From the NCBI RefSeq assembly GCF_000003605.2, contig NW_003136835.1, forward strand, positions 139,266 to 178,937: a stretch of 39,672 nt of DNA. The letters run 5' to 3'. The translations under genes were made by a program, and so were the position numbers. The DNA comes from Saccoglossus kowalevskii. Lineage: Eukaryota > Hemichordata > Enteropneusta > Harrimaniidae. This document shows, piece by piece, positions 1 through 38,590 of the stretch (within the stretch, counting starts at the first letter, position 1; each line of letters opens with the position of its first letter). The notes beneath the pieces were generated by a model. It saw only the letters and a list, made by a program, of their open reading frames with translations. It was not told where the DNA came from and did not search any database.

Positions 1-1296
1 GGGTTAGGGCTTTTACTGTTGGTACATTCATGACATGTATAGTTTTATTAGGCTGTACGTTGTACTAAAGTTCATGCAGAATTTTATTGAGTTGTTGTAC
101 CAGTTAACTGTTGTTGTATTTATCAAACGAGATTTGTTCATACTACTATAGTTATTGTTGTGTTTACGCTACATGTATATTGTTGGACATTGTGTATTTC
201 ACTATTGAGTTATACAACTTTAGTAATTATTGTGATGAACATTGCTGTTAATTCTGTCAACCGGAAGTAATTATTATTGTGCGTATCACTGCCGATTCAT
301 GCATTTGTAGTGTTTATTATCATACTATTGTTAGTTTATACTCCAGTGAGCGAGGTGCCAATTATTGTGTTATGTACAAATAATTATATTTGCCCACTGT
401 TGACCTTGGTTCACCTTTATGAATATTGAATAGAAGTTGTTGTTTACTTGTCCTGTCTGCGTCGTTAATTAATGGTGTGAATGTCTCCTTGATTATAATA
501 TTCGATGTACGTTGTTACCTCGATTTACCACTGGACTGTCGAATTGTCTCGACCGGAGTAAGAGATCCCTGGTTGTTATTGCAGAGATACCAGTTAGTTG
601 CCCTTCATATAAATTTTCCCTATCTGTCCACCTGTGATTTGAGCTTATCTAGTTTTAGGCAACTTATGGGTGTGACACATATATGCTACATGCCAAATAT
701 CCAGTTGGTCGGTTGAACCACTCCCAAGAAACAAATGCCATACATTTTTGCCTTTTGGGGGAAAATCAAAGATGGCCACAAAACCACGTGACTGGTCCGA
801 TTTATGTGTTTACTGTCAGAAAGAGTTGATGCAACATGGCAATCTCAAAATAATAAATGAATATCATTATACATAGATGCAAACAACATTCAAATTTCAG
901 ATTAATGTGTTTTGTGGTTCTGAAGAAAAAGAATTTATGTGATTTTTGATTTTCTCCTGAATGCCGATTTACCGATTAACTTGCTATTTTGCATACATCA
1001 TGTAGGACCAAAGCATTCTCTGAGAAAAAAATAACATATTTAAAAGGTATGTTCAGCCTTAGTCCTGACAAAACCGCTCTGCAGTTTTAACTGTGTTTTT
1101 TTAACTGGTGGGCATATTAGACAAATGTACAGGATAGGGCACATGCAGCGGAGCAAAACAACAGCTATATTGAAAGAAGGAAACGATGGAAATTAAGCAA
1201 ATATAGTATTCACACTGAAATCGATAGTTTATTATCGATAGTTCTCAGCTGTGGTATGATTATGTTTACAGTTTTAATTTGTGTTTATTATTATAG
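1..1296 (+). other. Upstream non-coding or first-intron sequence
   Basis: No exon is recognisable. The missing ITPR first coding exon (start codon, phase-2 end) should lie here or before the window. I looked for a GD-hydrophobic-SLY-like stretch before a GT donor and found none. An ATG at 771-773 opens a 31-codon frame with no family resemblance, and an open frame at 426-716 lacks convincing composition. The window opens with GGGTTAGGG, too short to be called telomeric. Confidence 0.5.
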
Positions 1297-4223
1297 CCAT
1301 GCACATAATATACTTCATGTGTACCCGGAAAAAGACAACAAGGAGCACAAAGGAAATAAACGAACATTTCTAAACCCACAAGGTAAGACTTATTTGTTTG
1401 TAATAAGTTAATAGGACGTGTCAATGACCTGACCTGAATGTCCGGTTAAAAAATAATTCGCTGGCGTCGGCAATTAGTCGCATATGAATAGATTGGAACG
1501 CCGGGTTAACCAGTCACTACATAATTTAAAATAGGTCATAACATATGCGCACACTTATTCTAAAATTGTACGTGCCGTGACTATAACTTTTCAGGTATTT
1601 TTCATAAAGTCTGGGAACATGTATAATAATAACACAACTGCGTGTGGTTCCTATGCACATGCTAGGGTAATACATTGGCAACACAATGAATTGTCCATAC
1701 AAAAAGACAATAATTAATATGTGTTACTAGCATTTTGAAAAAGGTTGACCTGTGTCAATTTCCCTTTTATATAATGCAACATTAGGTTTATTCATATAAT
1801 GCAAAGTTTATTCAATGAGAACTATCGAACTTCTTTCTTGTGCTATTTAACAGCTGCATTGTAAACATTCGGTATTTGTGTGTATATACTTACAGTTGCA
1901 ACTTTCCAAGTATGTGTACAACACAGATACCAAGCTCAGAAGAAGTACAGGGATCAGGCCAGCAAGTTCCTCGGATACCTCCTAAAGTGTGTATAGTTGA
2001 TTGATTGAACGAATAATACAGAATGCATTTTCAAACCGTCTGCATCGGGTGTTCAAATGAAGACACGCGCATACATTTAATGTGATGGACATAAAACTAG
2101 ATAATTTACTGTCAAATGTTGGTTTGCGAAACGATATGGACAATTGCCATTATTTTCTATATGCCTGTTAAGTGACATAAATTAGGGTAAACAGTTTCGA
2201 TATCACCACACTATGTAACAGCACTCCCAGTAATCTTATTTAGATTGAATCATGAAATATGCAAATATCTCAATATCATAGTGACTGTACTGTATCTATT
2301 GAATGATCATTAATGTTTATTCTAGTGTTTGATTGTTTAAGATATTAACTCAAATGCAAGTTGCAATTTCTAATTTTCTAATTAAAAATACCCTGCAAGC
2401 TTTCACGCATGATTGTTAACACCACGAATTGAGTTGAATTCACAATTAGTAAATGTACCTTGAAGCAATATACTGATAGCTCCTTAAACGAACTTATTTC
2501 CTAATCAAATGGTGGTGAAACCGTAAATTCATGTTCATGTTAGGCGATCTTTTAAACAACTGCGACAGTAGGTTATACAGAGTCTTATATTCCCGCAAAT
2601 TAGTATTGTTATGGGTCAGTCATAACTCTATATTTCACTATTGCTTAACAAAATAATATTTTTTTGTCAACCAGGAAAAAAGGTGAACAGGTTGAAAATT
2701 TGCCGGAACTCAAGGTACGAAAATCTGTGTCGAAATTTCCAGTTTAATTCTTTAATTTAAAATAAATGTTGATATTTTGTTTTGCGATCACCAATGTGGC
2801 TATATTGTACCGTAGGCATATCGGACTTCAAAACTACCACTCAACCCTCCAAACAAGTCACACTTACTAATTACCAGTCAAGTCTTTGTGTTGCTGTAAT
2901 TTCAGAACAAGGAAATTTTCAAACGAATTACATTTTTCAGCATGTTTGAATACTGGCAACATTTAGCCTGATATCGGCGAGGATGCAATAACTCTAGCCG
3001 ACCATGTCAGGCTCGGCAACTTTGAATTCATTGAATTTTGGTATATACATGTTGTTTATACATTTAAATGTCTAAAAATAAACAATAACACTTATTAACT
3101 AATTCAATATTATTTCTGTTATATTTTAACAACGTTCCGAAATCAATTTTGCAGTTGTAGTCTCAAAAGATTACAATTATTTTACATTTAGATAAGCAAA
3201 TTTGTACTGTAATAAGGTTCCTTTTCTACTGTAATACACTGAGTGAGACCTTGGCTGCGAGGTCTGGGTACACCTGGCTGTGAGATCCCTGCCACACCTA
3301 AGCACTAATCGTCATATCATTGTCTTGTTTTTATGAATATACTTATATAGAGATTGTCAGAAAAAGAAATGAGTGAAAACGAAAAAGAACAGGCAAGACA
3401 GCTACACACACCTGTCAAATATGGCCAGATTATACAGGTAGAACCAATGATTCTATGTTATACACGTTCTTTATTAATACAGATTGCACTAGTATTACTG
3501 GTAATATATGTAATCCAATTCATGGCAATTGTACTTGATATCCATTGCAACACGATAATGCCACATATCTCTCATTTCAGCTCAAGCACGTATTTACCAA
3601 GAAATACATCCATGTCAGTACTACACATACATCCAATACAGAGCACAGTAATATGCGTGTAAGTACTGAATTTAATGTATATCGATATGCATGTAACTGT
3701 TGCTATATAACTGTATCAATTGCCACGTGTACTATGTAGCCCCAGTAGTATCACGCCAGCGTGATGTAAATACAAGGAATTAATCATATTTATTTATTGA
3801 AGGTGGAGTTACTTGATCATCATGCTAAGAAGGCACAGTTTCGAATCATGCCAAGATATAAAGTGAAATCAGAAGGAGACACAGTGAGTATATGAAACAA
3901 TATTTAAACACTCTAGCGTCTTAATTATATCCTCGGGATGAAGGTCTAGTTTATGTAGCAGCTCAACAAAACCATTGTGTAAACAGTTTTTATTGACGAA
4001 CTATGAATATAAATTGCGGTCAAACAATTTTAAATTATGTTTAAATCATTATATGACACGATCATTTGGTTAATTGGTATGTAATAAAATCATTAACATT
4101 ACAATTATTTTTCACTTAGGTACAAGTGGATGATCAAATAATTCTAGTGAGCGTCAAAACAGCTGGTCACCATCTACATGTCAGTAATGCGAGATTGGGT
4201 CAAGATTTTATTAATTCTGATTC
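1297..4223 (+). CDS. ITPR: ITPR exons: N-terminal suppressor domain (beta-trefoil)
   Basis: Exons 1297-1382, 1896-1986, 2675-2714, 3351-3437, 3581-3658, 3803-3883, 4120-4223. In IP3R this domain lowers IP3 affinity and couples ligand binding to the pore. The second exon reads VATFQVCVQHRYQAQKKYRD, matching the family stretch around RDCLFKLCPMNRYSAQKQ. The fourth ends HTPVKYGQIIQ (family: VIQYGNVIQLLH), the fifth LKHVFTKKYIHVS (family: LKSNKYLTVN), the sixth QFRIMPRYKVKSEGD (family: FYIQPFYKLRSIGD), the seventh VDDQIILVSVKTAGHHLHVS (family: IGDKVVLNPVNAGQPLHAS). The first exon starts with the third base of a codon, so at least one upstream coding exon with a phase-2 end is needed; it should hold the start codon and the first strands (family: GDICSLYAEG). 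It was not found in the window. Donor 1987 (GTGTGT) is weaker than the rest. Confidence 0.85.
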
Positions 4224-7200
4224 GTAAGTGATTATTGTTATGTGATAATGCATGCGTTTGTTAACTATCCACTATGTCTAGTATACCAGTATGTCTCGGA
4301 ATGAGATTTTGTATTATCAATATGCATATTTCAGGTTCGAGTTGAACTTGTCTGTAAGAATGTCTGGATTCTCCATACAAAGATACTATAAACCAAATGT
4401 TCACCATGAAAATATTGTCAAGGTATGTATATTATATTACAATTTAGTGTACTCCATCGTATTTTATAGTCAGCGATACTTAATATGTAAAGATCGTTCA
4501 AATAACACAGCTATTATGATTTTATTCACGTTCCGAAATCTTACGTCGTAGACTACAATTGCACTAACCCCAAATAGTTGATTTCTTTTTTCTTAAGCAT
4601 ACTGCTGCAGGTATTTTAACTTTTTTTGACATTTAAAAGTGTATGCTATTTTGTAATATAAAGGGAGGCACTGTGTTCAGATTGTTCCACAAAGAGTTGG
4701 AAGCTTATCTAACAGCCGGCGAAGTAGATGAAGATGGTAAGAGAGCACGTTTTGTTACTATATTAATTTTATTGTTATTAACGTAATTTCTGATACAACT
4801 AATGTGCATTGTGACGATTACATATTCTTTACTTTTGTTATAAGAAGAAATTTTATAACGACGAAGCGATTTAATGACAGACATCAAAATAATGTAAATG
4901 GTTGAAAGGAACTAGCTAAAATGATGATAGTGATTAGTCGTGCAGTCATTCGTAATTGTGACTACAGATAGTTCAAATAGTAGGTCACATAAATGAGACT
5001 GCCTTGAGTTGTGCTGATGGATATTTGTTCATGGAAATCTGCCAACTTTATTATGTGTGATATGTATATGTTTATACCACAACAACTGTGTCTGAACTAA
5101 TTACAACAGTTGGCTAAATGTTTAACTTGTTTTCGAGAGTAGTAGGCTTGAACATGCAGTATTTAACGTGTGAATTAAACAAACAATTGAATGGAGTTCA
5201 AATTTTCCGCCCACTTGATCCCCCTTTGAGGTCGCCCATTCATTTTCGGCCCTCGGCTGACTGGCATTTACATGACTTCACTAACAATAACCTATTTTTA
5301 TGATTTTAGTGTCATTTTAGTTTTACATAATACTGGTTCCATTCATTTCTTTATTAAAGTGATCAACTTGAAATGGCTTTAATTGAATTGCAGTCATTTT
5401 TATATTTTGTTCAGGCATAGGAACCCATGTGTATAATACGATAACTTCATTAATTCATTTATTTATTAATTAATTAATTCATTCATTCATTCATTCATTC
5501 ATTCATTCATTCATTCATTCATCAAAATGAGACAATTTTACATATATCCATTTTATTAATAAATGTAATAAATTTGGCCTAATCTGAAATAACTTTGCAA
5601 TTATGTTTTAGATTACTTTGTTTCACAGAAACACTGTGTTTGTTTACAAGATTTGTTTGCTCAGCATTATGATTATTTTATAGTTCTCTTGAGAGTGAGG
5701 GTAACTGATCCCAGACGACCCAGAACGTTATCTCCTTCCACGTCAGCAATAACATACTGGCAGATAGAAGCCGCTGAAGGAATAATGACAGGTGACGTAT
5801 TTTCATATATAACGTTATCACAAGAATACTGCAAAATATGCTGCGTAGCGTGAGTATATGCGACCCGTACTGCCTGAGTACATACAATGCGGGGAAGTGT
5901 TCTATGTTCTTCGTGTGATTAGGTGTTCGTATGCAAGGGATTTTCCACACAAAACGACGTATTTGGTCGACTTTTGTTAGCGGCTGTCTCAATATTACCC
6001 CAACCCCTGATTTGTAAATCTGCAGAAACTTGTCTATTTATGTAGTTTCATGCCGTATTCAAGATGGCGGCCCCCATATAATAAATATCGCACTTGCGCC
6101 AGCTCAATGACTTGGAACACATCGATGTTTGTGACTTAGTTACTTGAATAAGTGCAGAAATGCTTTGGAACGTGTGCTGATACGACTTTTTCATAGAACG
6201 GCAAATTATATTGTTTTTGGTGCTAGATGTATAATAATTATTCTTATTAATGATAAACATTGTAATGAACTGGATTATGATTTTTTTATTTTGTATATAT
6301 CTCAAAATTAGGTGAAGTAATGAGATGGAAGCAACCGTGTCGTCTTAGACATTTAACTACACACAAGTATTTAAGTCTAGTGGTTAAAGGAAGTGGAGTT
6401 GAGGTAAAGTCTCATGTTAGTGTGATTGTCAATTAATATGATATTACACAATATAAATACGATATTTTTTCTGTTTTAATGTTATGTACATATAATGTTG
6501 GGATGTCTTGTTCATGTCTCTACTGAGGATAGGGAAGTTGGTTTCATTTGCATAAGTTTGTCCCAAACACATTAGTAGTGTCTACGCGGACATATTCTTT
6601 GGTTCGATATGTCAATGGGTTGAGTTTTTTTTTATTTTTTCCATAAAATTTATCTTTTTATTTCAAACCTTCGTCTCCCTGCTCTATTGATACATACACT
6701 ACTTCTGCAGTTTTTAGATTTTTATTTATACCAATCACAAGGCTGTATACATCCAATTCAGGTGAATTTGATAATTTATTATTATTGATATGTGATTTCT
6801 CGTCAGTTTTACAATGCTCAATGGCGCATCAAGAAAGTGATTTTCTTGCCTCGAAGAATGCTTGTAGTCATGTAATTAGCACCAATGTTATTTTCAAAGA
6901 TATATAAAACAAGATAGTGTTATGCTTGTTTCTAGATGACAGGCTATTTTGACTTATGTTGATACAAATATTTTTAGAAGCAATGCTTGTAGTACATGCA
7001 CAGAAATTGTTTATCAGTCACACAGGGTGAATTAGTCTATCTCTGCATAGCCCCATACAGTTACATTCCAATTGAAAATCGTGATTTCTTTCTAGATACA
7101 AGAGTAATGATATAACTGAACAAATGCCCATAACATTCAACTGACTTAGACATAGATAATAAGACAGTGAGTCGTTTTATTATTTTCCTGTTTTCTAGCT

Positions 7201-10200
7201 AGGTCCAGTAATAAGTTTTCCGAGACAAAAACAATCCTTCTTTCAATGAATCTAACACTATAAACTATGGCCACGGTGATGATTGATTCGTAACTGGCAT
7301 GACAACTCTCTATTTTATCATTTATTATTGCAGCAAAATTATATAAATGTGGTATCTAGACTATTATAAGTTGCATGGTACAATTTTGTATTCATTGTAT
7401 AGGTTACAGTGACCGACGACGCATCTGGACCAGATACTATATTTAAATTTCACCCCGTTGTTCATGATACGGAAGAAATAAAAGAAGTAAAAGGGATACA
7501 GTTTGAAAGTTATGCAAGCATTGAACATGTTTCTACCAAAAAATGGTTACATGGAGATTGTGGTGAGACATGATATTTCTTGTTCTACAGAAACTATAAC
7601 TGGTTGTGTTATTCACAGTCATAATGCATTTATTGATAAATGATTTCTTCTTACTGATCATATATGTAAGCATAGCATGAGTCGAGAACATGGCACTTTT
7701 TATAATATAAATCTGTCATATACTCATTCAACAATTGTCTTTGAAAAAAATAGCTTAGGTTTCATTATCAAGTAGTCGACGCATCTATCGATATAGTATT
7801 TGTAGTTTTTTATTGAAGCATTCATTTTACTTGTTCCCTGGATGCAATGGTTTATATCATGTTTAATTTTGTTTGTATTAGGTATTCGTCAATATAATAA
7901 AGTGGAAAAGGGTGACTCGGATTCAATGAGTAATTTACAGTGGAGTAAGGCTACACTAAGGAAAATCACTGCAAGGGAAAACAAGTTACAATTTGATGAT
8001 GCATTCACTATTCAAAAGGTATGACAATTTTACTGTTTGAAATATTACAGCTGCGAGCAACGTCACAGGGGCCCAAAAGAAAGCACACGTCAACACATAA
8101 CTTCAAATTTGATAACTTTGTTGGACACTGTATATTATTATACATTTACGTTTTGATTATCAAATTTTAAGTTACATTAGATTGCCCCTAAATTGTCAAT
8201 TTTGGTAAACACGTGACTCGAACAGTGAATTGTCAATTAGATTTGGAATATGTTTGAAATCCACCTGACGTTTAATCACACTTTGAAAATCGTAAAAAAA
8301 AATATTTATGTATATTTGAAAAGGCAATTATTTAAATCATTTTGATGATGTGCTCTTGACTATACCTTGAAATATCACGACATAATTTATTCAGATAGAT
8401 CATTGTTATTTGATGATTATTATGATATTTAGATGTATAAATAAAGTTTTGTCCTTCTGAAGAGGCTATGATTCACTATTCTGGACTCTTAATATTTGAC
8501 CTGGACTTGTATTTGACAATTTTAGGACAATAGTTTGATTTTGATGTTACCTTTATGGTCAATATGTTTCCCTAACAATGAAATAATTCTACACTGCTAG
8601 TTGAGGTTTGTCCTTAATATGGTCCACGTTTTGGAGACAAAATTTGGCACAACAAGATATTCCTGGAAAAGTGTGTTCATTTTATTCTTAATATCATATA
8701 TGCTTGTACATTTCACCATGGATATATAGTTATATTATTTGCCAGAATTTAATATAAACTTCAGAATTATGAATGAAAATATAGACGATTGAAATTAATG
8801 CTTGTGAACAAGAAATGGACAAGACCATAACTGGGCGAACAAACCAAGCGTCAGAATCTGAATGTATATATTTCCTTTTATACATGAAATAAACTTGTGT
8901 TCCAGGTGGATACTGATTTGATTGAAATCTTCAATTTCGTTGCTGGTATGGTGCCTGTTTTACAGAAAATTGTTAAGGATGTAAGTGCACTTGTTTTATA
9001 GCTTCAAAAATTCAGGACCAGTGACAATATATACATAGTGACGTAATTGAGGGTCAATGACCATGTATACATAGTGACGTAATTGAGGATCAGTGACCAA
9101 GTATACACAGTGACGTAATTGAGGGTCCGTGATCATGTATACATAGTGACGTAATTGAGGGTCAATGACCATGTATACAAAGTGACGTAATTGAGGGTCA
9201 GTGACCATGTATACATAGTGACGTAATTGAGGGTCAATGACCATGTATACATAGTGACGTAATTGAGGATTAGTGACCATGTATACATAGTGACGTAACT
9301 GTGGGTCAGTGACCATGTATACATAGTGACGTAATTGAGGATCAGTGACCATGTATACATAGTGACGTAATTGAGGGTCAGCGACCATGTATACATAGTG
9401 ACGTAATTGAAGGTCAGTGACCATGTATACATAGTGACGTAATTGAGGATCAGTGACCATGTATACACTTCGCAAACATAACCCAAACATGTTCAGCAAG
9501 TTATTTTAGAATTTTCCTCCTTAGAATAAAATACCTAATAAAAAACAGGCCAAGAAGATCACAGATGCCTTACAAGAATTGAATCGTTTTATGAATGTGA
9601 ATGGTGAATATATAAAAGATAGACAGAAATTACTGAGAAACCTGAAAGTCGTTGATTTACTTGTGGACGTAACTAAATTATCTTACAAGAAGGAGAACGA
9701 GAAACATAAAAGGTGAGCAAGATTTTGTTTACAATCAAATGTTTCCCAATATTATGCTATATCTGAAATTGATGACTGGTTAGTAAATAAATGCATGATT
9801 CGCGAATGAATGGGAGGGGGGTAATTTTTCTTATTTTGAATTATTTAAAAAAAGCTGATTTAAAGCTGAAGGGTCGTCACCTGCGCACGCGCGGGAATTG
9901 AGTCACATGCGATGATAACAACACATGCTAAGAACGCAAAGGCTCATAGGTGGACGCTTGTTTGTAAACAATGACACGCTATGGCAACCTGGGGCATACA
10001 TAGGTAACAACTCCCTCCCCCGCTTTAAAAATAAAATGACTTTCATCTTATCTGTATCATCGTAATCGATATTGTACTGACCAATTTGGCATCTCGACCG
10101 GCTTTTGTCCTATGTACATCTTTTGGGATATTTGTTAAATTTCTCTTAATAAATAAATAAAGTATTATAAATGTTGAATTATTCTATATGATGAATACGG

Positions 10201-13200
10201 CACGTGCTGAAGAATATTAATTGTATTGTAATTATGATGATAACTGACTGGTTGACCTCGATTGTTTATTTTTGTAGAATGGCTGATATTATTATAATGT
10301 GTTACGAAGTCTTATATACATATGTCTGTGGTGACAGTAGAAAGAATGAACTATACCTTGCAAGATTTATTGATTACTTTCAAGGTCAATTGAAACAGGT
10401 TAGTTAACACTATCAACAGATGGCATATTCAATTAAAAAAAATAACCAGTAACCACGGTTATCGCATCAACACTTCTGGTTATAAACAAACAAAAACAAG
10501 ATTGTGTCCACTGTCCATTATCAGCTGATGCCACAATCTATAGTATATTTAGTCTTTCAAGAAACATCGTGTAGGATATGCAAAATAACAATTTCACAAC
10601 GATTGAATTACTGCCTGATATAAACTGTATTTGATACCTCCACATATTGAATTAACATAAGTTTTATTTATTTCTAGACAAGTGTAGGTAATGTTTTTAC
10701 AGAACAAAATGTTGGACATGTTGTTACACGTATGCTGATGGAGTTGTTTCGTGATAATCGGAAGATTGTTGACAGAATAACGAAGCAACATATTACGCAA
10801 TACATAGATTTACTTGAGGAAAGCAAGGTGAGATAATAATTTGAAAATAAATCAAAAGCAATAAAGATCGATTAGTATATGTATACAAATTTGAAGTTGG
10901 AAATATTAGTATTTAAAAACCAGGTCACACATTAGTTAAAGGGAGCTACTCGTAACTTGTATGTAGTTTCTATTAAAATACTGTACAGAGAAAGGTGACT
11001 GTAGAATCGGTTTGTTGGAATTTTGTGGGAGTTCAAGTTGTCATATTGTGATTTTATTCAGACATAATGGGACATGAAATCCAGTTACGAGCGTTTGTAA
11101 ACAAACTCCAACATTTCTATATATAGACAATGGTATATCACAACAAGTGATAGTACCTCAAAGCAGCCAATGGGGATAGACAATGTCATTTTTTGAAAGG
11201 GGATATATCGGTGGGTGCAGCTTGTATGATCTGCATTCATCTCCATTCTTCAATATATGTGATTGTCTTGCATAAAATCGACATGTATTGATGAGTGAAT
11301 TTCATATATGTAGTTGCTTTTTTACATGAATCTGTCATATTATCTCTCTAATATGTGTATGTAGAACTATAATTATTTGGATCTACTGGGCGTGCTGTGT
11401 GTTTGTAATGGTGTAGCCATTCCCGGGAACCAAAGTAAGTTAAATCATTGGAATAATTTTTATTTTTATATTGTTCACAATACCATAATCTGATTCATCA
11501 AACTGAATCATGTCCACACGTTTTCTTCTCTTCAAAGACGTCATCGCTGGAGCCTGGTCCAAGGAAAGGAAACCAGGTACTAATGTAGGTATCACGTGAC
11601 AAGTCAGTTATAATTTGATTGATTTTGTGATTGCAAGAAGTTTGGATTCTACTTCAGGAACTGTACACGATATATACAGTTAGTCAGTTTTTTACTTGCG
11701 TTTGTTAAACTATCAATGCAAATAAAAATTCTTTATTTATTTGTTTTCATGACCAGTCATGTTTGTATTTTACTGAAGTTGGATCAGCAATAGGCAAAAC
11801 AGATGATGATATGTATATATCTACTGATAATGGTAAAACGTGGATCCCTTTAAGTGGTGATTCAAAAGAACATCACATATTCCTCGAACATCAGCTGGAT
11901 TTATTTGGTAAACTGTCCCAGGTGAGTGACGTGGCATCGTGTTTTACAGTTCTTCGTGGAGATCTGCGTAGTCTATGCAGATATATTAATTTTAAAGTTT
12001 AAGCAATGTATGTGATATTCAGTTGCAAAAATGCAGCAAATACTGTATTTTGATACTCAAACTCATAGATCCCGTTAAACACATGAAATAAACTTAAAAT
12101 AATTATAATCAGAAACTCGATTAATCTCTAAAAATTTCAATTACACTTCAAAAAAACCTGAAACCCAGAAACCCTGGTCGTATACGAGTAAAATGCATTA
12201 TATTTTAATGTAAATACCTGGATAAAAAACTCTCACACTTGAATCACTTCTGGGCTACATGCGATACATTCCATGATGTTATACCCGAGATGTTTAACTG
12301 GTTTCAAACAAACTTTCAAACATGATTAATTATTGAATATCCCCTTTGAAAGGGGAAAGTTCCACTGAAGTGAGTTATGAGTATGTTCCTGGAATATATG
12401 AGAATACTGAATATGCTTAGCAGACGTGAAATGGAAATGATACATTATATTATAGTGTACTTTCACATAAAAAAATATTAATGTATTATTATTAATCTTT
12501 GTTTTCAGGGTCGCAATGAAAATGTGATTGAAAAGATTACCGACAAGTTTACTTTTCAGAAAGCCTATCTTTCTTTAAAGAATGACAAGTTACCAGCAAC
12601 ACTTCGAGCCAAGTATTGTGAGCTAATAAAGAGTAAGTTCAGTATGTTCATCTGCAGTCAGAGTGGCGTTCTGAAAACTGAAATATCATATCTATATAAC
12701 ATATAAGACCAAAGAGAAATATAATTAGTCACATGGTTTCATTTATTGTTTGTACCCAAGAGAACGACTTTGCATGGAGACGGTCAAACCCTGGTGGCAG
12801 CCATGTTTGTTTTTAGCTCCCGTGATGCGGAGCTTATGTGTTATCGGTGTCTGTGACGCTGTGACTTTGTGACTAAAATTTGTTCCTCTGATAACTTAAG
12901 ATCTACAATTTCAATTCAAATGAAATTTGGCACACGACTATAATATATGATGAGTAGATGTGCTAATTTAATTGTGGTGCAATTCCATGCATTTTAATTA
13001 GCTAATTATTGCATTAATTAATTTATAACTTAGTGGTCTTGGAAATTTCTAAACAAATATTTAACTTGGGTGAGTAGCCTAATTTGCATATTGCGATAAC
13101 GTATTCTGTCGCAAAAATACTTGTAATATTTTATTGGAAGGTCTGAAATTTGCGAGTTTTAGTATATAATGATTAAATGTGTCATCATGGATGTTATTTG

Positions 13201-16200
13201 AGCAGATACAGCGACTAAACACATCAAATGTATGCGGTTTTATCAGTATGGCGAGTATGTATGCGCAGTTACAGCCATTTTTTCAGTTTGCAGGACCCTT
13301 TCTGATTTTCATAAACGCAAGTTCAATTTCACTTTGTGCATCATATTCATCAATAGACAAAATCGAAGGCAGAATCGCGTACAAGTTCCTGCCAATCATG
13401 ATTCGCAAATGTGCTGGTTTGTTAAAATATGAGTGAACCTGGTGGAATCACAGGTGCTGGTCAGACCTGGGATCGCCGGTTTTCTGCCAAAATATAAGAA
13501 ATGCATTCATATTTGCAAAACCAACCATGTGGTGTCACAATATCACAAAATACTAGATGTAGCCCAAATCTCTGGAAAAATTAACTTGAAATGAATAAAT
13601 TTTTATATTTTTTCATAAAAAAATTACAAGAGTACCAGTATATCTTCACATGCTGCTTTTTTTTACAGTAATAGCGCCCTCACATGTTTAATATTTTTGT
13701 TCTTTTTAAAGTGATCTTTTAAAGTTAACTTTCACAGTGCCCTATATAAGTATAGTAATCTCACATGTTTTTCAAAATGCCCATATCAAAATCTAGTGTT
13801 TCCATATATGTCATAGTTTCTCGGACATCAATTTTATTAATATTTGGTAAAAGTATGGATCGACCTACATGCAATTACATTCACTTATTATACAAAGCCT
13901 ATAGCTTCATAATACTTGCTCTGATCACACGGGAGCTATTTACAGTTTAACTTTGATTATTATTAGAGAATGATTACGCGCATAATCATTCTATATTTGG
14001 AATTCGCATTTCCATATTGAGGATCCTGCAAAATTACAGTAAGCTGTAACTTATGGCGTTACGGTGACAGATGTATAATAATAATACTTATTATACCATT
14101 TACAAAAATGACAGATTTTCCGAAATTGCAAAGAAACTGACTGGTGGTTAACCTTCTAAGCAGCATAAACCACGTCACCACACATTGACCTGGATGTGTT
14201 GTGTTATAGAATATTGTGATTGTGTTTTGCAGTTGTCGCTAGTATCAACTGTCTTAATATTTCTCTACAGATCTCTTCATTGATGTTGGTCAAAATGTTC
14301 CTGTATTCGACAGACCGAAATTATTATTTGTATGGGATGAGTTAAAGAAAAGCTGTTCCAGTGTGGTAAATTTGGCAAATAATATTTGATGTTATCTTAA
14401 ATATACTGGAAAACTAATTATGTAGTTTTGAAGCTATAACAAATGGACAATGTAATATGATTAATCTTTAAGCACATTTACAATAATACGTAAAATAACA
14501 TATTGCCTGTATCAAAATGTTCCTCACTAACTTACCAGGCTGAATCACATCGAATCCAGTTCAAAGATCTGGCTGTTCTGATTAATGCCATTTTGAAAGA
14601 GAAATCCGACCATAGAGTGTTGCAATTGCAGGTAAGTGCAGATTTATACAAGTTCAAATCTAGCTATATATAAAGGTGAATGGGCACTAGTGTGACACAA
14701 TTATGTTTGTTTTTTCACATTTACACGTAGAGATACCAGATTGATTCGACCCAAATGTATACACATTAGTTCATTACAGATAGTCCGGCTTCATTCACAC
14801 AAGCAGTCAGCTGGGGAAACCCCTCGCTGCACTTTTCTCTTCCGCTTCTCCTTCTCTCTTCCCTTATAAAAGGTTACAAAGTCAAATCACTGAGGCGTGG
14901 CGGAGTAAACATGCGATCAGCCAATCGCTGCAGTCGTTGGCACGATCACGTGATTACCAGGAATGTGTTTTACGGCCTCGCCTTGCAAAGTTGCCACTAC
15001 ACAATACAATAAGTAAACAATCTATTTATCAAATTCCTGAAATATATGTTTATAATCTCCACCCTAAACGTGCAAGTAGTTGATTCTGAACAATAGTCTA
15101 ACGGCGTGTGATGGGAATGTGCGATCGTGAAGACTTAATAGCTCCAATACTATTTAAAAGATTGACATGTGTTATCACTCGAGAAAAAAATGCATGGTGT
15201 TTATGTGTTATGTGTTTCCCTGCGAACTACTCCAGTATGCGCAATTATTTGGCTGACGATGTGTTTATAACTGTTTGGAACATTTTCACAAGATAACAAA
15301 ACTCATATAGATTATTTTGTAAATTGACAAGCCACCAATATTTTGTGAAAGTTTCACATGAAAAAAACACACAAATACCCAAGGATTTCCTTGAGTGTAA
15401 CATTTGGTGGCCAACTGTATAACCCATGTTGTGAGAATGACAAATATTGCAAATGTCGCATCAAAAGACCGACAGTAAAATGCAATGACCGAATGGTAAT
15501 TCGCCTTTGTTAGCAATAGAAACATAACAATAAGTTAGAAGTATTCAAGGAGTTTCAAAGTGCTTCAGGGACAATGGTCTGGAAATCCAATTGTATATTG
15601 GCAACAAAAAACAAATTCCAAATAAAGAGGCATCACGAGGAATACTGCTGTAAATCAAAACAAGTTTTTATCGGCTACAGACGGCCCATGAAATAAAATA
15701 AAGCCTGTCCTCTGGAAATGCCTCATTCATAAAGTGTTTAGTACTGCAGATTGACGACCATGTCCATACAACGCACTATGTGATATCACTTTTGAAATTC
15801 TGTCGCCCCTCCCCCCAAAACGTAGTGGGAAAATGTTTTCTATTACCATTTACAATGCGGCAAAAACAATGAAATCAAAAGAAATAGTGCTGTATGGCCT
15901 TCAATTCCCAATACGCGAAAATAATGTATTTTACAGTATATTAAATTATAGGCATACATTTGAAAACTTACAAAAGCAATTTAGGCGTTCTTTTTTTAGT
16001 ATGTTAGAGTTCCGAGGAAAACTAGCAAAATTTACGTTAAATATTGAACAGGTATGTTATTATATAATATTTCAATACATTGTGCTATTATATCACTTTA
16101 CAGGTGCTTAGACTTGTATATACACTGGTGAAGTTTGGATATTACACAGATAAAGACGATATTAAAGATTTTGTCGAGTCTCTTAAGATAGTGGTGAACA

Positions 16201-34200: not shown

Positions 34201-36489
34201 ATATATAGATGCAAGTTAATAGTTTAATCTCTAAAACCCAATTGATACAACGTGGGCTAGCACATAAGTTTTGTTAACAATGTAGGCATTGTTGTTCTAT
34301 AAACAGTTCGATCAGCTGAGATTAGTCATGGCTTATCTCATAATGTCGATAATAGAAGAAAATGTTCCTGGAGGTTCAAAATTGGAAGACGAAGTCAAAG
34401 GAACAATAGATAAAGAGCAAATATATCTCATGATGCTACATTATTATTGTAAAGTAAGTCTCGGTGATTCAATAATATATTTTAGAACAAATAATACTCG
34501 AGAAATACCAATACTTACAATGATTCTATAGATCTGATTAATTAAGTACTACTATGAATAATGTTTTAATCCAATTATTCATAAACATATATAAACAAAT
34601 CAAATAAACAGTTTTTTTAATTCAAATTTTAGGAACCACACAATGAACTTGATACAGATATTGGCTTTGCGTACTATCATATTTTAATGCGACTGCAGGA
34701 TATTGGTGTTCCTATCATAAGAAACAGTAAGGATTTATTGTTTGCATTAAATAACATATATTAATTTAGTTTTACTTCTTGCGATTACAAATAAAATAAA
34801 ATAAGTGCGATGTAATGGTGTTTTTGAATCATGCAGTAAGCATAAATACAGTAGCTCATATGATATATACAAGAAATACAAATTTTCTTTGAATATGGAA
34901 AAATCACAAACACGTCACTAATTATTACTCAATTCAAATTACACAAGTTACAGTTATTATATGACTCCAATAGTGAGCAATTGGTCATATACTCACTTTT
35001 TTCAGTGTCGGGTGTAACAGCTGTGTGCAGCCAATGAAACTTCGGTATTTCTGAATTTCATGGATCTCTGTCCAACACTTATACGATTGTTATTAATTTT
35101 AGGTTTCTCAACAGTTAGAGAAAATTATTTTAAACGTAAGAGTACAAGTGGAAACGACATAAAAAGTGAAGAGGACAACTGCAATGAATGGACCTTCTAC
35201 GCAGATAACTCGAAGTCAGTTGAATTACTTAAAAATGGTGAAGTACAGAAACTTCATTTTCGAGTTAAAAATACTGTAAGTATAGTACAAACTGCGAGAC
35301 ATGTATGCGTGTGAGAATGTACATGAACAACTACAATCAGAAGTGGTGACACAGATAAATAAGGAGTTACATTTTGGGGCATAAAGAGTGAAGAAAAACA
35401 TATACCCTAATTCAGTATGCTTTGAACAGGTTAGCCCTATTTGTATATTTTGAAAAATCCATTGCCAAGGTATGCATCAACCATTTTTTCAATCTTGATA
35501 GAAATACTAACGTGTAACGAATGTATATTAATGTTGTTTTTCAATTCGATAAAATATGGTCGAGTAGCAGACATTTCAGACGCAAAATTGCCATCACTTC
35601 TGTTTTCTGAGATGACTGAACCATTTTCACAGCAGGTGACCGACTTTTTTGTTTTTATCTCTTTTTTTTTCTATTTTGATCCCAGTGGCATCATGCAATT
35701 AAAATGGTAAGTCGTATCATATTTTATGTTTCTTGTATTTGATAATGTATTTATAAACATTTTATGTGTTCTTGTATGTCAATATTTAGCATGCCCTTAG
35801 AGAGGAAGTCAAGGAGAAATTGAAATGGAACATTAAACGAGAGTCACAAGGTGACAAAATAAACGATTTAGTCATGTGGTCAGACGATATCAAGAGTGAC
35901 ATCAAATACGAAACCAAAATGTTATCATATAAACCAACGAAGTTTTTTATTACTTTAACGTGAGTAAAATTAAATTTATTGAGAACAGCATCTCATTTCA
36001 ACATCTCTAACACAAGTTAATGTTGTTGTTGAAGTTGTAGAATGTCTGTGTATAGCACATGATGCAGACGACCATTTACTTGAAAAATGTTCCCATCAAC
36101 ATATTTTACAACATATCACATTAGAGTGTGGCACTGGGCTCGTATTATTACTGTCATATCATGATCAATATGATTTGTATGTAATACGAAAGAACACCGG
36201 ATGCTGTGTCTTGTTTTGGTTCAAAACATTCTGGATGTTAGTAGCGTGCCCATGGAAACTGCACACGCAAATGTCTAATGTTACATTCTTCTTGCGTAGT
36301 GTTGTATATTAGTGTGTATATTAGTATTATGACTGTGTCCACATATTATAATACATATTAATCTAAAATGCGTCCTCGCATCAAATGTTTAATTTACAGG
36401 CCTTACTGGAACTGGGCTTTATTAATATTATCTTTTGCTATTAATGTTATCATACTTGCAACGTGGGTGGCTCCAGATGACCATGACGT
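1297..36489 (+). CDS. ITPR: Divergent IP3 receptor-like gene, 56 exons, incomplete at both ends
   Basis: IP3 receptors are tetrameric ER calcium-release channels opened by inositol 1,4,5-trisphosphate and calcium. I assembled 56 GT-AG exons with fully compatible phases, giving about 2,090 codons without a stop. The best landmarks against vertebrate ITPR are: YLLK..VKYGQIIQ-like suppressor strands, GGTVFRLFHKELEAYLT (MIR), KDRQKLLR and DSRKNE (ligand-core helices), NYNYLDLLGVLCVCNG, LYMISLVDLLATCAEGENTY, HTDLQ-NYLRDQ (RIH-associated), and QGDKINDLV..SDDIKSDI leading into one hydrophobic helix. Domain order and intron density fit ITPR, and no SPRY or RyR repeats are seen, so a ryanodine receptor is unlikely. 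Vertebrate ITPRs have about 2,700 residues; here the N-terminal ~25-40 residues and everything after S1 are missing. Identity is low, so this may be a paralogue rather than the orthodox receptor. Exon coordinates are given in the domain entries. Confidence 0.9.
4335..8018 (+). CDS. ITPR: ITPR exons: MIR/beta-trefoil half of ligand core, P4 loop replaced
   Basis: Exons 4335-4422, 4664-4736, 5684-5791, 6312-6403, 7403-7562, 7882-8018. This is the beta-domain of the IP3-binding core, a MIR-type trefoil. GGTVFRLFHKELEAYLT aligns without gaps to GGDVVRLFHAEQEKFLT of IP3R1, keeping R241 (codon 4679-4681) but changing K249 to Ala (4703-4705). The next exon gives LLR for the family FLR, keeping R265 (5692-5694), but the following T266-T267-G268-R269 is V-R-V-T, then a proline/arginine stretch DPRRPR, before SPSTSAITYWQIE rejoins the family SATSSKALWEVE. 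RLRHLTTHKYLSL matches FKHLATGHYLAA. The 7403 exon (SGPDTIFKFHPV .. IEHVSTKKWLHGDC) matches NDISSIFELDP .. LRHLCTNTWVHST. The fold is clearly kept; ligand binding is doubtful on the beta side. Confidence 0.85.
5449..5522. repeat. Compound microsatellite (TTAA)n(TTCA)n
   Basis: A short TTAA/TTTA run passes into about eleven TTCA units. It sits in the 4737-5683 intron of the ITPR gene. No other feature was seen in that intron. Confidence 0.95.
6404..7402 (+). other. Intron without recognised content
   Basis: AT-rich intron between the MIR exons ending 6403 and starting 7403. I see no exon, ORF of note or clear repeat. Confidence 0.6.
8019..8905 (+). other. Intron without recognised content
   Basis: AT-rich intron between exons ending 8018 and starting 8906. 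An E-box ACACGTGA (8210-8217 region) was noted but is not meaningful alone. Confidence 0.6.
8906..11434 (+). CDS. ITPR: ITPR exons: RIH/armadillo half of the IP3-binding core
   Basis: Exons 8906-8980, 9549-9712, 10278-10398, 10678-10827, 11365-11434. This is the alpha-helical domain (Pfam RYDR_ITPR) which supplies most 5-phosphate contacts. KDRQKLLRNLKVVDLL aligns with RERQKLMREQNILKQI: R504 is Lys (9615-9617), K508 (9627-9629) and R511 (9636-9638) are kept. In CGDSRKNELYLARF (family QDYRKNQEYIAKQF) Y567 is Ser (10336-10338) while R568 and K569 are kept (10339-10344). Exon 10678 (RMLMELFRDNRKIVDRITKQ) matches ITALLHNNRKLLEKHITA, and exon 11365 (YNYLDLLGVLCVCNGVAIP) matches PRFLDYLSDLCVSMNKSIP. 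The first two exons flank a 36-bp minisatellite in their shared intron. All phases agree. Confidence 0.9.
9019..9470. repeat. 36-bp minisatellite, ~12.5 copies
   Basis: Twelve TGACGTAA octamers start exactly every 36 bp (9039, 9075, 9111 ... 9435). Each unit also holds the self-complementary decamer ATGTATACAT or a close variant. Copies differ at only a few sites, so the array is young or homogenised. It lies in the intron 8981-9548, starting about 40 bp after the donor. Because 36 is a multiple of three, long open frames run through it on the minus strand; these are artefacts, not genes. Confidence 0.97.
11538..16876 (+). CDS. ITPR: ITPR exons: helical region after the ligand core
   Basis: Exons 11538-11584, 11757-11921, 12509-12632, 14271-14365, 14539-14631, 16104-16267, 16789-16876. 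These code for the helical (ARM2-like) regulatory scaffold. MYISTDNGKTW fits the family VWLTWTD-type strand, and the next exons (ENVIEKITDKFTFQKAYLSL .. LPATLRAKYCELI) fit [20 protein letters not shown] .. LPYDLRASFCRLM. DRPKLLFVWDEL fits the VKYARLWSEIP position. VLRLVYTLVKFGYYT fits VVNLARNLIYFGFYN, and FSLILNFRSNERLREFIS fits LQFILNVRLDYRISCLLC. The 11538 exon must end at 11584 (AAT before GTAGGT) for the frame to stay open; the better-looking donor at 11573 gives a stop. The exon ending at 14631 joins directly in phase to 16104. A 1.1-kb repeat element lies in the 12633-14270 intron. Confidence 0.8.
12815..13937. mobile_element. Interspersed repeat element with inverted termini
   Basis: The left end AGCTCCCGTG (12815-12824) is the inverse of the right end CACGGGAGCT (13928-13937). 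The left end itself folds: AGCTCC at 12815-12820 pairs with GGAGCT at 12829-12834. After it comes a GTGTCTGTGACG stretch and TGAAATTTGG (12921-12930), a motif I also see near 21973 and 36881. No transposase frame is visible, so it is non-autonomous or decayed. It is inserted in the ITPR intron 12633-14270. Target-site duplications could not be settled by eye. Confidence 0.5.
14632..16103 (+). other. Large intron with a GC-richer block
   Basis: Around 14770-15000 the composition becomes richer in G+C and CpG, with a TATA-like TTATAAAAGG (14864-14873) and the E-box TCACGTGA (14946-14953). This may be an old repeat or a regulatory island; nothing in it is diagnostic. The frame 15977-16051 before a GTATGT donor is discussed as a doubtful alternative exon. 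The remainder is AT-rich. Confidence 0.4.
17100..18370. other. Intronic block with divergent unexplained open frames
   Basis: On the minus strand, 17655-17921 and 17172-17354 are open, and a third open stretch ends near 17482; read in order they look like pieces of one frame broken by shifts and stops. On the plus strand, 17963-18367 is open for 134 codons (for example TLASATTTATSS, NPTIVEKLRNLQLTRHL). The two directions diverge from about 17,940. No domain or family was recognised. The composition is less AT-rich than flanking intron. It could be a decayed mobile or captured element; it could also be chance. It lies in the intron 16877-18527. Confidence 0.25.
18528..22962 (+). CDS. ITPR: ITPR exons: second RIH-like domain
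   Basis: Exons 18528-18625, 19228-19306, 19380-19487, 19588-19724, 21188-21314, 22686-22756, 22866-22962. This block matches the central RIH domain of the family. MLQMSMHLLYIQYSSYSRLF corresponds to [37 protein letters not shown] to VVKEILIRLSKLCVQES; NQIILYNCGILSDIFEIF to QQRLLRNMGAHAVVLELL; GNTDVQMRLFERLDILL to GNQQNQALLHKHINLFL. The 19228 exon is short, and its acceptor lies 20 nt after a TTTA microsatellite. The 18528 exon encodes a Lys/Glu-rich linker (LNEDFKKKYREDSDKNE) with no detailed counterpart, so that join rests mainly on splice phase. The vertebrate modulatory inserts in this region are not seen. Confidence 0.8.
19115..19207. repeat. (AT)n and (TTTA)n microsatellites at a splice acceptor
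   Basis: An AT dinucleotide run (19115-19134) is followed by about sixteen TTTA units (19144-19207). The acceptor AG of the 19228 ITPR exon is 20 nt downstream, so the T-rich repeat forms much of the region that normally holds the branch point and pyrimidine tract. Confidence 0.95.
19725..21187 (+). other. Large intron, no clear content
   Basis: AT-rich intron between ITPR exons ending 19724 and starting 21188. An open stretch at 20702-20923 has no recognisable relatives or splice context. I see nothing else. Confidence 0.5.
21940..22040 (-). repeat. Dispersed repeat module, minus orientation
   Basis: CCAAGTTTCA (21973-21982) followed by CGAACTAAGC and, after a gap, CAGACAGACA (22021-22030). 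On the minus strand this reads TGTCTGTCTG .. TTAGTTCG .. TGAAACTTGG, the same order as the module near 36820-36890 (plus) and, with a T for C, near 12845-12930 (plus). It lies in the ITPR intron 21315-22685, which otherwise shows nothing coding. Confidence 0.5.
23330..27149 (+). CDS. ITPR: ITPR exons: central helical domain (ISLVDLLATCAEG block)
   Basis: Exons 23330-23449, 23966-24066, 24162-24243, 24407-24582, 25226-25412, 26405-26497, 26594-26695, 27084-27149. The clearest match in the gene is across exons 24162 and 24407: PDLYMISLVDLLATCAE then GENTYIESICQKFFSLDDLL, equal to the family [53 protein letters not shown] fits NVQYIKFLQTIVKAE. DFWKLLETTIDEI fits the NHMWKLFENFLVDI site. LKEHGVVDKLVKSV fits CESGGFICKLIKHT, and EFVKIIDTLST fits EKLCIKVLQTL. 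The donor at 24244 (GTTGTT) is weak but required. Exon 27084 is a charged linker (EEFKAKQKARATDNKSEAQK). Confidence 0.85.
24583..25225 (+). other. Intron without recognised content
   Basis: AT-rich intron between exons ending 24582 and starting 25226; a CTACTATACG-type short direct repeat occurs near 25160-25190. Confidence 0.5.
25580..25760. repeat. GATATC-rich intronic block
   Basis: Four GATATC hexamers and further CGATAT variants occur within about 180 bp, several flanked so that TCGATATC and GATATCGA face each other. CpG is locally frequent. An open minus-strand frame (25523-25816) runs through but its residues follow from the repeated hexamer. Located in the ITPR intron 25413-26404, which also holds a 12-G homopolymer at 26103-26114. 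Confidence 0.4.
27369..27433 (+). CDS. ITPR: Possible optional ITPR exon A
   Basis: Reads LIYDDLKKQETAFALKLLKQ plus two residues between ACAG and GTAATA; starts in phase 0 and ends in phase 2. It can only be used together with exon B (27539-27629). The pyrimidine tract is poor. The charged sequence suits this variable linker, but no family match supports it. Confidence 0.3.
27539..27629 (+). CDS. ITPR: Possible optional ITPR exon B
   Basis: Reads IRPPISIKSMLVVIAHIQRK then PFKRVPILEM between CTTAG and GTTAAT; it takes the phase-2 end of exon A back to phase 0, which is what the next exon at 27709 needs. It is more GC-rich than the intron around it. A second frame is also open, so chance or a repeat (CCAATCAGC-like) is a real alternative. 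Confidence 0.3.
27709..32840 (+). CDS. ITPR: ITPR exons: regulatory linker with conserved helical core
   Basis: Exons 27709-27862, 28157-28307, 29222-29297, 29406-29482, 30829-30985, 31617-31714, 32504-32576, 32772-32840. The stretch IQNELDEHGAMLKILPLAG .. LLVFISAMLFNGNQSVQSSL followed by MKYFLDSKEEHFFMVVKNRI corresponds to the family VQCHLDKEGASNLVIDLI .. [20 protein letters not shown] then [39 protein letters not shown] recalls a motif shared by IP3R and RyR. The flanking exons are hydrophilic (KKGTKEKNDEQ, EEENKEPSP, NNTKENDN), the place where vertebrate IP3Rs hold phosphorylation and splice-variant segments. An extra exon pair at 27369-27433/27539-27629 may insert before this block. Confidence 0.8.
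28308..29221 (+). other. Intron without recognised content
   Basis: AT-rich intron between ITPR exons ending 28307 and starting 29222. No exon or repeat was recognised. Confidence 0.5.
29797..29836. repeat. 12-bp perfect inverted repeat
   Basis: ACACAGTTACGC (29797-29808) pairs with GCGTAACTGTGT (29825-29836) across a 16-nt GT-rich loop. It lies in the ITPR intron 29483-30828. Confidence 0.85.
29870..30340. repeat. Degraded interspersed repeat relics
   Basis: The strings GCATATTAA, CCTAATTT, ACACTCATCACATTTC and CACTCATCACATTTC recur with drift at 29900-30110 and 30190-30300. Similar GCATATTAATT text appears near 31238-31270. These look like old copies of one AT-rich repeat, not genes. Confidence 0.4.
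31715..32503 (+). other. Intron without recognised content
   Basis: Intron between ITPR exons ending 31714 and starting 32504. A 62-codon open stretch at 31869-32057 has no family resemblance and no usable splice context. Confidence 0.5.
33030..34726 (+). CDS. ITPR: ITPR exons: RIH-associated domain
   Basis: Exons 33030-33266, 33664-33813, 33899-34003, 34286-34453, 34633-34726. Pfam RIH_assoc region, which links the cytosolic helices to the channel. LLRILGGMCDGQHTDLQ joined to NYLRDQHNNSRIVNIVAETA corresponds to [55 protein letters not shown] to [40 protein letters not shown] to [20 protein letters not shown], where the family Cys of PCHEN is absent. QLRLVMAYLIMSIIEE fits NNASKLLLAIMESRHD, and DIGFAYYHILMRLQDI fits NVGHNIYILAHQLARH. 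Exon 33030 is the longest of the gene (79 codons); its first half (MFRSEYFKYPCCQNKVNDSE) is not conserved. Confidence 0.9.
35103..36489 (+). CDS. ITPR: ITPR exons: pre-channel linker and first membrane helix (S1)
   Basis: Exons 35103-35275, 35790-35959, 36400-36489. EWTFYADNSKSVELLKNGEV then QKLHFRV corresponds to the family [25 protein letters not shown]. Joining 35275 straight to 35790 gives a stretch up to GDKIN almost the same length as the vertebrate FPVPS-to-GSKIN stretch. QGDKINDLVMWSDDIKSDI fits QGSKINDFFLRSEDLFNEM. The last exon encodes YWNWALLILSFAINVIILAT, one clear ~20-residue hydrophobic helix aligned with S1 (ISFNLAVLMNLLVAFF), followed by the acidic turn APDDHDV. It ends in phase 2 at a good donor (GTAAGT, 36490). 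No exon for S2-S6, selectivity filter or C-terminal coiled coil was recognised downstream. Confidence 0.85.
35612..35635 (+). CDS. ITPR: Candidate 24-nt symmetric microexon
   Basis: ATG ACT .. CAG CAG (MTEPFSQQ) between a pyrimidine-rich CTTCTGTTTTCTGAG and GTGACC. It starts and ends in phase 0, so it can be included or skipped. Skipping it gives the family-like length, so inclusion would be an insertion just before the S1 linker. Confidence 0.25.
35686..35706 (+). CDS. ITPR: Candidate 21-nt symmetric microexon
   Basis: Encodes WHHAIKM between a very strong pyrimidine tract ending CCCAG and a consensus GTAAGT donor, phase 0 to phase 0. Splice signals are better than those of the 24-nt candidate. 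The family-like join is 35275 to 35790, so this would be a cassette insertion. Confidence 0.35.
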
Positions 36490-38200: not shown

Positions 38201-38209
38201 TCTTGCTAG

Positions 38210-38590
38210 AACTATCAGGGGGGAATTCTTCTCCACGGGGGTCTCCACACTTGTCAGGGGGGAATCTCGTCTCGTCTCTATATCTTGTCCCCTTGAGGTG
38301 TGGGATCGGGAAAGTCACTTATACTTTACAGTCAAATAAGACACACACAACGAAATATGGTTCAACTCACGTCTGTCTGTGGAGCACTCTATAAGACACA
38401 GCGCTCTGGGGAAAAGTCTCCAAGGCTATTGCAAGGCTGACCCAAGACTCTTTTAGACTGCGTCAACACTCGCCCCAAGGCTCTCCAGGACTGGACTCTC
38501 GACTGCGTCTGTCTGCTGTACTCCCCAAAACCAACTAAAACAACTTTATTCATTTTCAAAACTCTAACCAATTACAAAGCAGTAAAAAGA
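38210..38590 (-). repeat. GC-richer repeat, possibly LTR-like, minus strand
   Basis: TCAGGGGGGAAT occurs at 38215-38226 and again at 38254-38265. On the minus strand an AATAAA signal (38545-38550) is followed by a CTGGAGAG/CTTGGGG-rich stretch, as in the R-U5 part of some LTRs. No flanking internal coding region is present, so at most this is a solo LTR. Confidence 0.25.

Follow-up and report, generated by a model that had tools for sequence, protein, structure and literature searches.

A putative IP3RB channel gene of Saccoglossus kowalevskii and its sister copies, with conserved phosphate-contacting residues and a rebuilt P4 loop

When an inositol 1,4,5-trisphosphate (IP3) receptor-like protein has changed about half of the residues that contact IP3, has its binding core decayed, or has it been remodeled around an inositol phosphate? 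The question is raised by a stretch of 39,672 nucleotides from the hemichordate Saccoglossus kowalevskii (contig NW_003136835.1; C2854:139266-178937 in our contig labels), called the window below, whose end is also the end of its contig. Predicted exons with AG/GT borders on its plus strand encode an IP3-receptor-like protein up to the first membrane helix, and the window appears to hold most of an apparently intact gene, here named L1, for an intracellular tetrameric cation channel of the IP3 receptor (IP3R)/ryanodine receptor (RyR) superfamily. Judged by its features and by published descriptions, L1 probably belongs to the IP3RB (IP3R-B) subfamily. Two sister copies, L2 and L3, lie together on another contig, C4564, and the binding core of L1 looks like a case of remodeling rather than decay, with the phosphate grip conserved and the loop around the P4 phosphate rebuilt.

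The gene model of L1 was chained by a script from splice scores and open frames and then curated by hand. Sixteen curated exons, from position 2675 to 11434, join without a stop codon into 542 residues, with frames and splice sites intact (Table 1); two exons further upstream (1249..1382 and 1896..1986) were excluded from every count, and between 12.6 and 33 kb the model is incomplete and its candidate borders are approximate. A 507-residue first version, in which one exon-junction residue was misread (Gly for Val), matched rat IP3R1 with a phmmer E value of 5.5e-29 and, less strongly, RyR1 (best 3.4e-19). Pfam recognizes Ins145_P3_rec (E 2.8e-20), MIR (5.3e-20), and RIH (4.1e-23) in the 542 residues and an RIH-associated domain (3.8e-20) in candidate exons further downstream, each passing its curated cutoff, which places L1 in the superfamily by domain content. 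Because of the match to IP3R1 and the first three of these domains, chance similarity to IP3 receptors is excluded on sequence grounds. The joined ARM2 candidate exons match IP3R3 residues 1232-1431 (E 1.4e-13), all 14 of their phmmer matches being IP3 receptors, and the ARM3-to-TM1 exons match parts of IP3R3 (E 1.1e-10). Neither SPRY domains nor RyR repeats were found by Pfam in the parts scanned from this incomplete model. At the calcium site, whose residues are named in PMC8930994, the alignment with IP3R3 gives L1 an Asp at E1882 and a conserved E1946, and L2 and L3 look alike by eye.

The contact residues were numbered after rat IP3R1 from PDB chain 5xa0, in which 13 of 13 contact positions were checked. 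All six MAFFT alignments agree that R241, R265, K508, R511, R568, and K569 are identical in L1, that Lys replaces R504, and that K249 and Y567 have become Ala and Ser; an earlier note on this DNA, made from the letters alone, had read these positions correctly. The number of identical contacts is 6 of 13 in four alignments and 7 of 13 in the two that keep T267, short of the complete or nearly complete set of an ordinary receptor. Cryo-electron microscopy of IP3R1 assigns P4 to T267, R269, and S274, P5 to K508, R511, Y567, and K569, and P1 to R504 and R568 (PMC9663519). Read against the residues of L1, these assignments suggest that P1 and P5 have kept most of their sites, Y567 and the Lys at R504 being the exceptions, and that the P4 site is remodeled. 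The earlier note had claimed that the alpha-domain grip on the phosphates is largely kept, and this stands, with K508, R511, R568, and K569 identical. Its companion claim, that the beta-domain side is lost, goes too far: the loop is altered, but R241 and R265 are present, unchanged across all three paralogues, and the loop after R265 is longer (LRVRVTDPRRPRTLSPSTS), not missing.

The register of loop residues 266 to 269 in L1 is ambiguous. T267 is identical in two of six MAFFT runs and in the phmmer alignment (made with the 507-residue query and its misread residue); R269 is identical in none of the MAFFT runs and is kept in the phmmer alignment only. Whether T266, T267, G268, and R269 all differ, as had been stated, therefore depends on the register chosen. 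The ordinary receptor encoded in the same genome carries Val for T266 and Ala for G268, so that differences at these two positions are no mark of lost binding; its P4 loop (C300:93976-94122) reads LRVTARQS, against LRTTGRQS in rat IP3R1. In L1, L2, and L3, the exon that carries the loop measures 108, 108, and 105 nucleotides, with equal phases, and reads LRVRVTDPRRPRT, LRVRITDPSHPKT, and LRVRKPDPNRPKT, respectively. Its acceptor in L1, at 5684, was chosen from the sister exons, the scoring script favoring 5612. From 4740 to 6300, every candidate that fits the phases and passes the splice-score limits is a form of this same exon, with an acceptor at 5612, 5684, or 5747, and no alternative exon carrying TTGR was found, the TTGR-like loop pattern being absent from the three plus-strand frames of the window.

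How many such genes does the animal have? A search of the genome (572 Mb in 4,830 contigs) with the N-terminal part of L1 gave at least 37 matches at E values up to 1, which are the exons of the window and two sets on C4564. L2 occupies the plus strand from ~246 kb to 303 kb, as far as mapped, and L3 the minus strand from ~344 kb down to 315 kb or beyond; the two stand tail to tail, their last recognized exons ~11 to 13 kb apart. All three copies share exon phases, and their N-terminal identities are 0.65 (L1-L2), 0.62 (L1-L3), and 0.66 (L2-L3). Synonymous divergence (dS) is 0.94, 1.3, and 1.4 for the same pairs, and the ratio of nonsynonymous to synonymous divergence (dN/dS; Nei-Gojobori, own script) is 0.25, 0.21, and 0.16, values that mark L1 to L3 as old copies under purifying selection. 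This search listed neither the ordinary IP3 receptor gene (ITPR) nor RyR; its counts are lower bounds, and further copies are possible. The paralogy that the earlier note had proposed, together with a search for a second, canonical ITPR, is confirmed by an ordinary ITPR on C300, whose N-terminal part of 447 residues matches IP3R1 with an E value of 5.8e-218 and is identical to it at 272 of 368 positions of the binding core. Exons of RyR, identified by eye against RyR1, lie on C1938, and L1 to L3 stand beside these two genes as a third lineage. The genome has at least three copies of a presumed IP3RB in addition to its ordinary IP3R and RyR genes. Two other candidates were discarded: C1938:482889, considered as an ordinary ITPR, reads as RyR, and the reading frames at an RIH match on C4175 (Pfam, E 0.21) look unrelated.

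Is the inositol-phosphate grip kept by selection? The test set was the 46 Arg and Lys residues of rat IP3R1 224-604 that are aligned in all three copies. Eight are invariant in IP3R1 and L1 to L3 (R241, R265, R304, R506, K508, R511, R568, and K569), and seven of these eight are among the ten basic IP3-contact residues (P = 1.7e-5), which argues for a kept inositol-phosphate site. As L1 to L3 form one lineage, the pattern across sites counts once and not three times. In the RyR1 control, eight of the ten basic residues are aligned, R265 and R269 falling in a gap; RyR1 keeps R241, R504, and R506, plus R568 in two of three alignments, and lacks K508, R511, and K569. R265, K508, R511, and K569 are thus kept in L1 to L3 and not in RyR1. 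With the sites shared by RyR1 removed, the remaining invariant residues are all contacts: 4 of 4 in two of the three alignments (P = 1.6e-4; 40 sites, 6 contacts) and 5 of 5 in the other one (P = 2.8e-5; 41 sites, 7 contacts). Ten basic residues for IP3 binding are mentioned in PMC3194816.

Of the C-terminal six-helix region, the window copy shows only TM1 before the contig ends, and the filter was read in L2 and L3. Both carry S5, a pore helix, and S6 (GLNIIFGIIVDTFSELR and GLNIVFGIIVDTFSELR) and a zinc-finger linker (CFICG..H..H), with the S6 Phe gate and the linker kept, and the pore part of L2 matches IP3R3 with an E value of 1.7e-39 (phmmer). The filter stretch, within which the pairing of residues is ambiguous, reads HGLRNGGGVGDILRKP in IP3R3, FGLIDGLQEYLAIP in L2, and YGLLESFHESIGIP in L3, and it differs between the two copies (DGLQEYL versus ESFHESI). 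A six-frame pattern search of C4564:296501-306500 (L2) and 313001-322000 (L3; 564 bases are N) found no GGGxGD. This motif is conserved in parasite homologues (PMC3194816), and the oomycete filter is GGGIGD or GGGLG(G/S) (PMC7399828). No report of a non-GGGxGD filter or a rebuilt pocket in IP3RB was found in the available text of the literature searched, to which most subscription journals do not belong. A genome search with the L2 pore matched the L2 and L3 pores only. Searches with the IP3R3 and RyR1 pores, run as controls for GGGxGD within the genome, found L2 and L3, and the RyR1 pore also hit C4784 weakly (E 0.12). Although N-terminal exons of an ordinary ITPR and of RyR are present in the genome, neither pore was among the matches; unassembled stretches may explain this.

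Several points weigh against reading L1 as an IP3RB channel with a kept inositol-phosphate site. Taken together, the 13 contacts are not conserved above background (L1, 6/13, P = 0.083; L2, P = 0.095; L3, P = 0.088), and K249, Y567, and the P4 loop are changed in L1. IP3R-B has been reported to be unable to bind IP3, and invertebrates are said to have one gene each for RyR and IP3R (both in PMC9113742). The presumed IP3RB membership of L1 to L3 is judged from their features and from published descriptions of the subfamily, the predicted exon model is partly approximate, and the pore identities (L2-IP3R3, 54/139; L2-RyR1, 52/137; IP3R3-RyR1, 62/138) do not make L2 nearer to IP3R than to RyR. 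It is possible, though on balance improbable, that L1 is an IP3RB that binds no ligand and acts as a regulatory or calcium-gated subunit, its basic residues serving folding or subunit contacts. Besides the reported failure of IP3R-B to bind, such a role would fit the changes at K249 and Y567 and the rebuilding of the P4 loop, which affect all three copies, and R241, R506, and R568 are present in RyR1 also (R568 in two of three alignments), supporting a structural role for those three. What it leaves unaccounted for is R265, K508, R511, and K569, absent from RyR1 and invariant in L1 to L3, while most other Arg and Lys residues vary (the two P values by alignment given above). That L1 instead binds IP3 much as an ordinary receptor does, with equivalents of T267 and R269 present and the loop difference a matter of alignment, seems unlikely. 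The phmmer alignment does pair RVTD-P-RR with RTTG-RQ and so keeps R265, T267, and R269, two of six MAFFT runs also keep T267, and the ordinary ITPR of the same genome itself has V and A at 266 and 268. However, the loop is RITDPSHPKT in L2 and RKPDPNRPKT in L3, and in the register kindest to ordinary binding, L3 has Pro in place of T267 and L2 lacks an Arg at R269, so that the positions used for P4 are not conserved; the changes at K249 and Y567 speak against it as well.

Could the gene be broken, or be of another family altogether? A decaying or truncated gene, in which the window copy stops after TM1 and is a pseudogene or encodes a soluble fragment, is quite unlikely. No later channel exon was recognized after the TM1 exon in the final 3.2 kb, up to the contig end at 39672, where the tail is repeat-like, and the L2 pore found no third pore in the genome. 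On the other hand, the contig ends where the window does, and the IP3R3 and RyR1 pore searches missed the ordinary ITPR and RyR pores too, which makes the absence of an L1 pore uninformative; moreover, the 16 curated exons are intact in frame and splice sites, and dN/dS to the sisters is 0.21 to 0.25. As for L1 being a relative of ryanodine receptors rather than of IP3 receptors, we consider it highly improbable. L1 has two RyR-like stretches, LCVCNGVA..NQ (LCVCNGVAIPGNQ, against LCVCNGVAVRSNQ in RyR1) and RW.QP.R.RH.TT..YL, and the L2 pore is about equally identical to IP3R3 and RyR1. Against these stand the lack of SPRY domains and RyR repeats in the scanned parts, the ARM2 matches to IP3 receptors only (14/14), phmmer scores that favor IP3R over RyR in three other parts compared (one of them from L2), and the kept IP3-specific basic residues.

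The reading of L1 as an IP3RB was compared with what is known of the three lineages. N-terminal identities (MAFFT localpair) are 135/488 (28%) for L1-IP3R1, 122/464 for L1-RyR1, and 111/504 for IP3R1-RyR1; in this part, L1 appears nearer to IP3R1 and to RyR1 than these are to each other, which is not so in the pore. Alzayady 2015, the paper that defined the subfamily, is said to place IP3R-B as the sister of RyR and to report on Capsaspora, whose IP3R-B is reportedly the protein found unable to bind IP3. The bilaterian ancestor has been inferred to possess IP3RA, IP3RB, and RyR; IP3RB was lost in vertebrates and is absent in fly and worm, Helobdella has two, the leech Hirudo expresses one copy in its touch neurons, and the physiology of the subfamily is described as mostly undetermined (all in PMC7992859). 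Like IP3RB, the genes described here form a third lineage in a genome that also has an ordinary IP3R and a RyR, are duplicated as in the leech (ip3rb2), and combine features common to IP3R and RyR; unlike it, in a comparison made by description only, they keep R265, K508, R511, and K569, whereas IP3RB is reported not to bind IP3. With ordinary IP3 receptors (IP3RA; ITPR1-3), L1 shares the domain order and the phosphate grip of K508, R511, R568, K569, and R265, and the sister copies share the Phe at the S6 gate and the C-x2-C..H..H linker; the differences lie in the 28% N-terminal identity, K249, Y567, and the P4 loop of L1 and in the absence of GGGVGD from L2 and L3. With RyR, L1 shares the LCVCNGVA stretch and the MIR segment RW.QP.R.RH.TT, and the sister copies share ELRD after S6 and the EDM.T.CFICG linker, plus DITF in L2; it differs in having no SPRY or RyR repeats in the scanned parts and in keeping IP3-specific basic residues that RyR1 lacks. 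By pairwise identity and by description, all these features are consistent with IP3RB.

The features of the window are collected in Table 1. The window at ~38080-38450 and C4564 near its end have similar repeat-like sequence (SGGNSSPRGSPHLSGGNLVSSLYLVPLRCGIGKVT and relatives), on C4564 close to Gypsy-like Pol reading frames; such repeats may explain the contig breaks at both places.

Table 1. Exons and other features of the window, in window positions
Feature	Position	Strand	Basis and remarks
Possible upstream exon	1249..1382	+	Open frame, splice sites; borders and frame uncertain
Probable suppressor-domain exon, VCVQHRYQAQKKYRDQASKF..	1896..1986	+	Weak donor; similar L3 frame by eye
Short exon KKGEQVENLPELK	2675..2714	+	Splice sites, exon chain
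Suppressor-domain exon	3351..3437	+	Splice sites, phmmer to IP3R1; hand-set donor (script: 3500)
Suppressor-domain exon	3581..3658	+	Splice sites, phmmer to IP3R1; L2 and L3 exon of equal phase
Suppressor-domain exon	3803..3883	+	Splice sites, phmmer to IP3R1; L2 and L3 exon of equal phase
Suppressor-domain exon (IILVSV..LHVS)	4120..4223	+	Splice sites, phmmer; L2 and L3 exon of equal phase
Exon, suppressor-domain end	4335..4422	+	Splice sites, phmmer; L2 and L3 exon of equal phase
Exon with R241 (FRLFH), Ala at K249	4664..4736	+	Alignment, splice sites
Exon with R265 and rebuilt P4 loop LRVRVTDPRRPRTLSPSTS	5684..5791	+	108 nt; sister exons 108, 105 nt
Exon, MIR/beta-trefoil 2 (RWKQPCRLRHLTTHKYL)	6312..6403	+	Splice sites, Pfam
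Exon, MIR/beta-trefoil 2	7403..7562	+	Splice sites, Pfam
Exon, beta-domain end	7882..8018	+	Splice sites
Exon, alpha-domain start	8906..8980	+	Splice sites
Intronic 36-bp minisatellite, 12.5 copies	9019..9467		Within binding-core region
Exon with K504 (for R504), R506, K508, R511 (IKDRQKLLR)	9549..9712	+	Alignment; hand-set acceptor
Exon with Ser at Y567, R568, K569 (GDSRKNELYL)	10278..10398	+	Alignment, splice sites
RIH-domain exon	10678..10827	+	Splice sites, Pfam
Exon with RyR-like stretch LCVCNGVAIPGNQ	11365..11434	+	Splice sites, alignment
Exon (SCLYFTEVG..LDLFGKLSQ)	11757..11921	+	Splice scores; similar L3 frame by eye
Exon (GRNENVIEKITDKF..)	12509..12632	+	Splice scores; similar L3 frame by eye
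Candidate exons	14271-14365 (similar L3 frame), 14539-14631, 16104-16267, 19228-19306, 21188-21314	+	Splice scores, open frames; approximate
ARM2-region exons	22866-22962, 23330-23449, 23966-24066, 24162-~24240 (script: 24290), 24407-24582	+	Approximate; phmmer
Candidate exons	25226-25412, 26405-26497, 26594-26695, 27709-27862	+	Splice scores, open frames; approximate
Candidate exons	28157-28307, 30829-30985, 31622-31714, 32504-32576	+	Splice scores, open frames; approximate
RIH-associated-domain exons	33030-33266, 33664-33813, 33899-34003	+	Pfam; ARM3 acids of calcium site
ARM3-to-juxtamembrane exons	34286-34453, 34633-34726, 35103-35275, 35790-35959	+	Approximate; relatives in L2, L3
Last recognized coding exon, transmembrane helix 1 (NWALLILSFAINVIILATW)	36400..36489	+	Donor intact

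How might such a channel work? The chances that the core of L1 holds an inositol phosphate seem to us about evenly balanced. If it does, K504, R506, K508, R511, R568, and K569, together with R265, would hold the ligand by its P1 and P5 phosphates, with a lobe of the core on either side, and the lengthened loop after R265 would form a different P4 pocket, so that affinity or specificity would be unlike those of an ordinary IP3 receptor. When the lobes close, the movement would reach the S6 gate by way of ARM1-ARM3 and the calcium site, with calcium acting at the D/E site and S6 opening by an IP3R-type Phe gate. Because the filter of L2 and L3 is not GGGxGD, ion selectivity may differ too. The fullest version of this proposal, in which L1 to L3 form an inositol-phosphate-gated channel with a ligand other than Ins(1,4,5)P3 (P1 and P5 held, P4 pocket replaced) and with a non-GGGxGD filter, is a speculation that we hold rather doubtful.

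IP3RB is already known as a subfamily, and L1 to L3 are probable further members of it. The three copies yield clear predictions, an inositol-phosphate grip under selection and an unusual P4 pocket, and the filter of two of them departs from a GGGxGD motif described as conserved (PMC3194816, PMC7399828). If both the other ligand and the non-GGGxGD filter were true, a single animal lineage would have changed the superfamily in both its chemical trigger and its ion selectivity.

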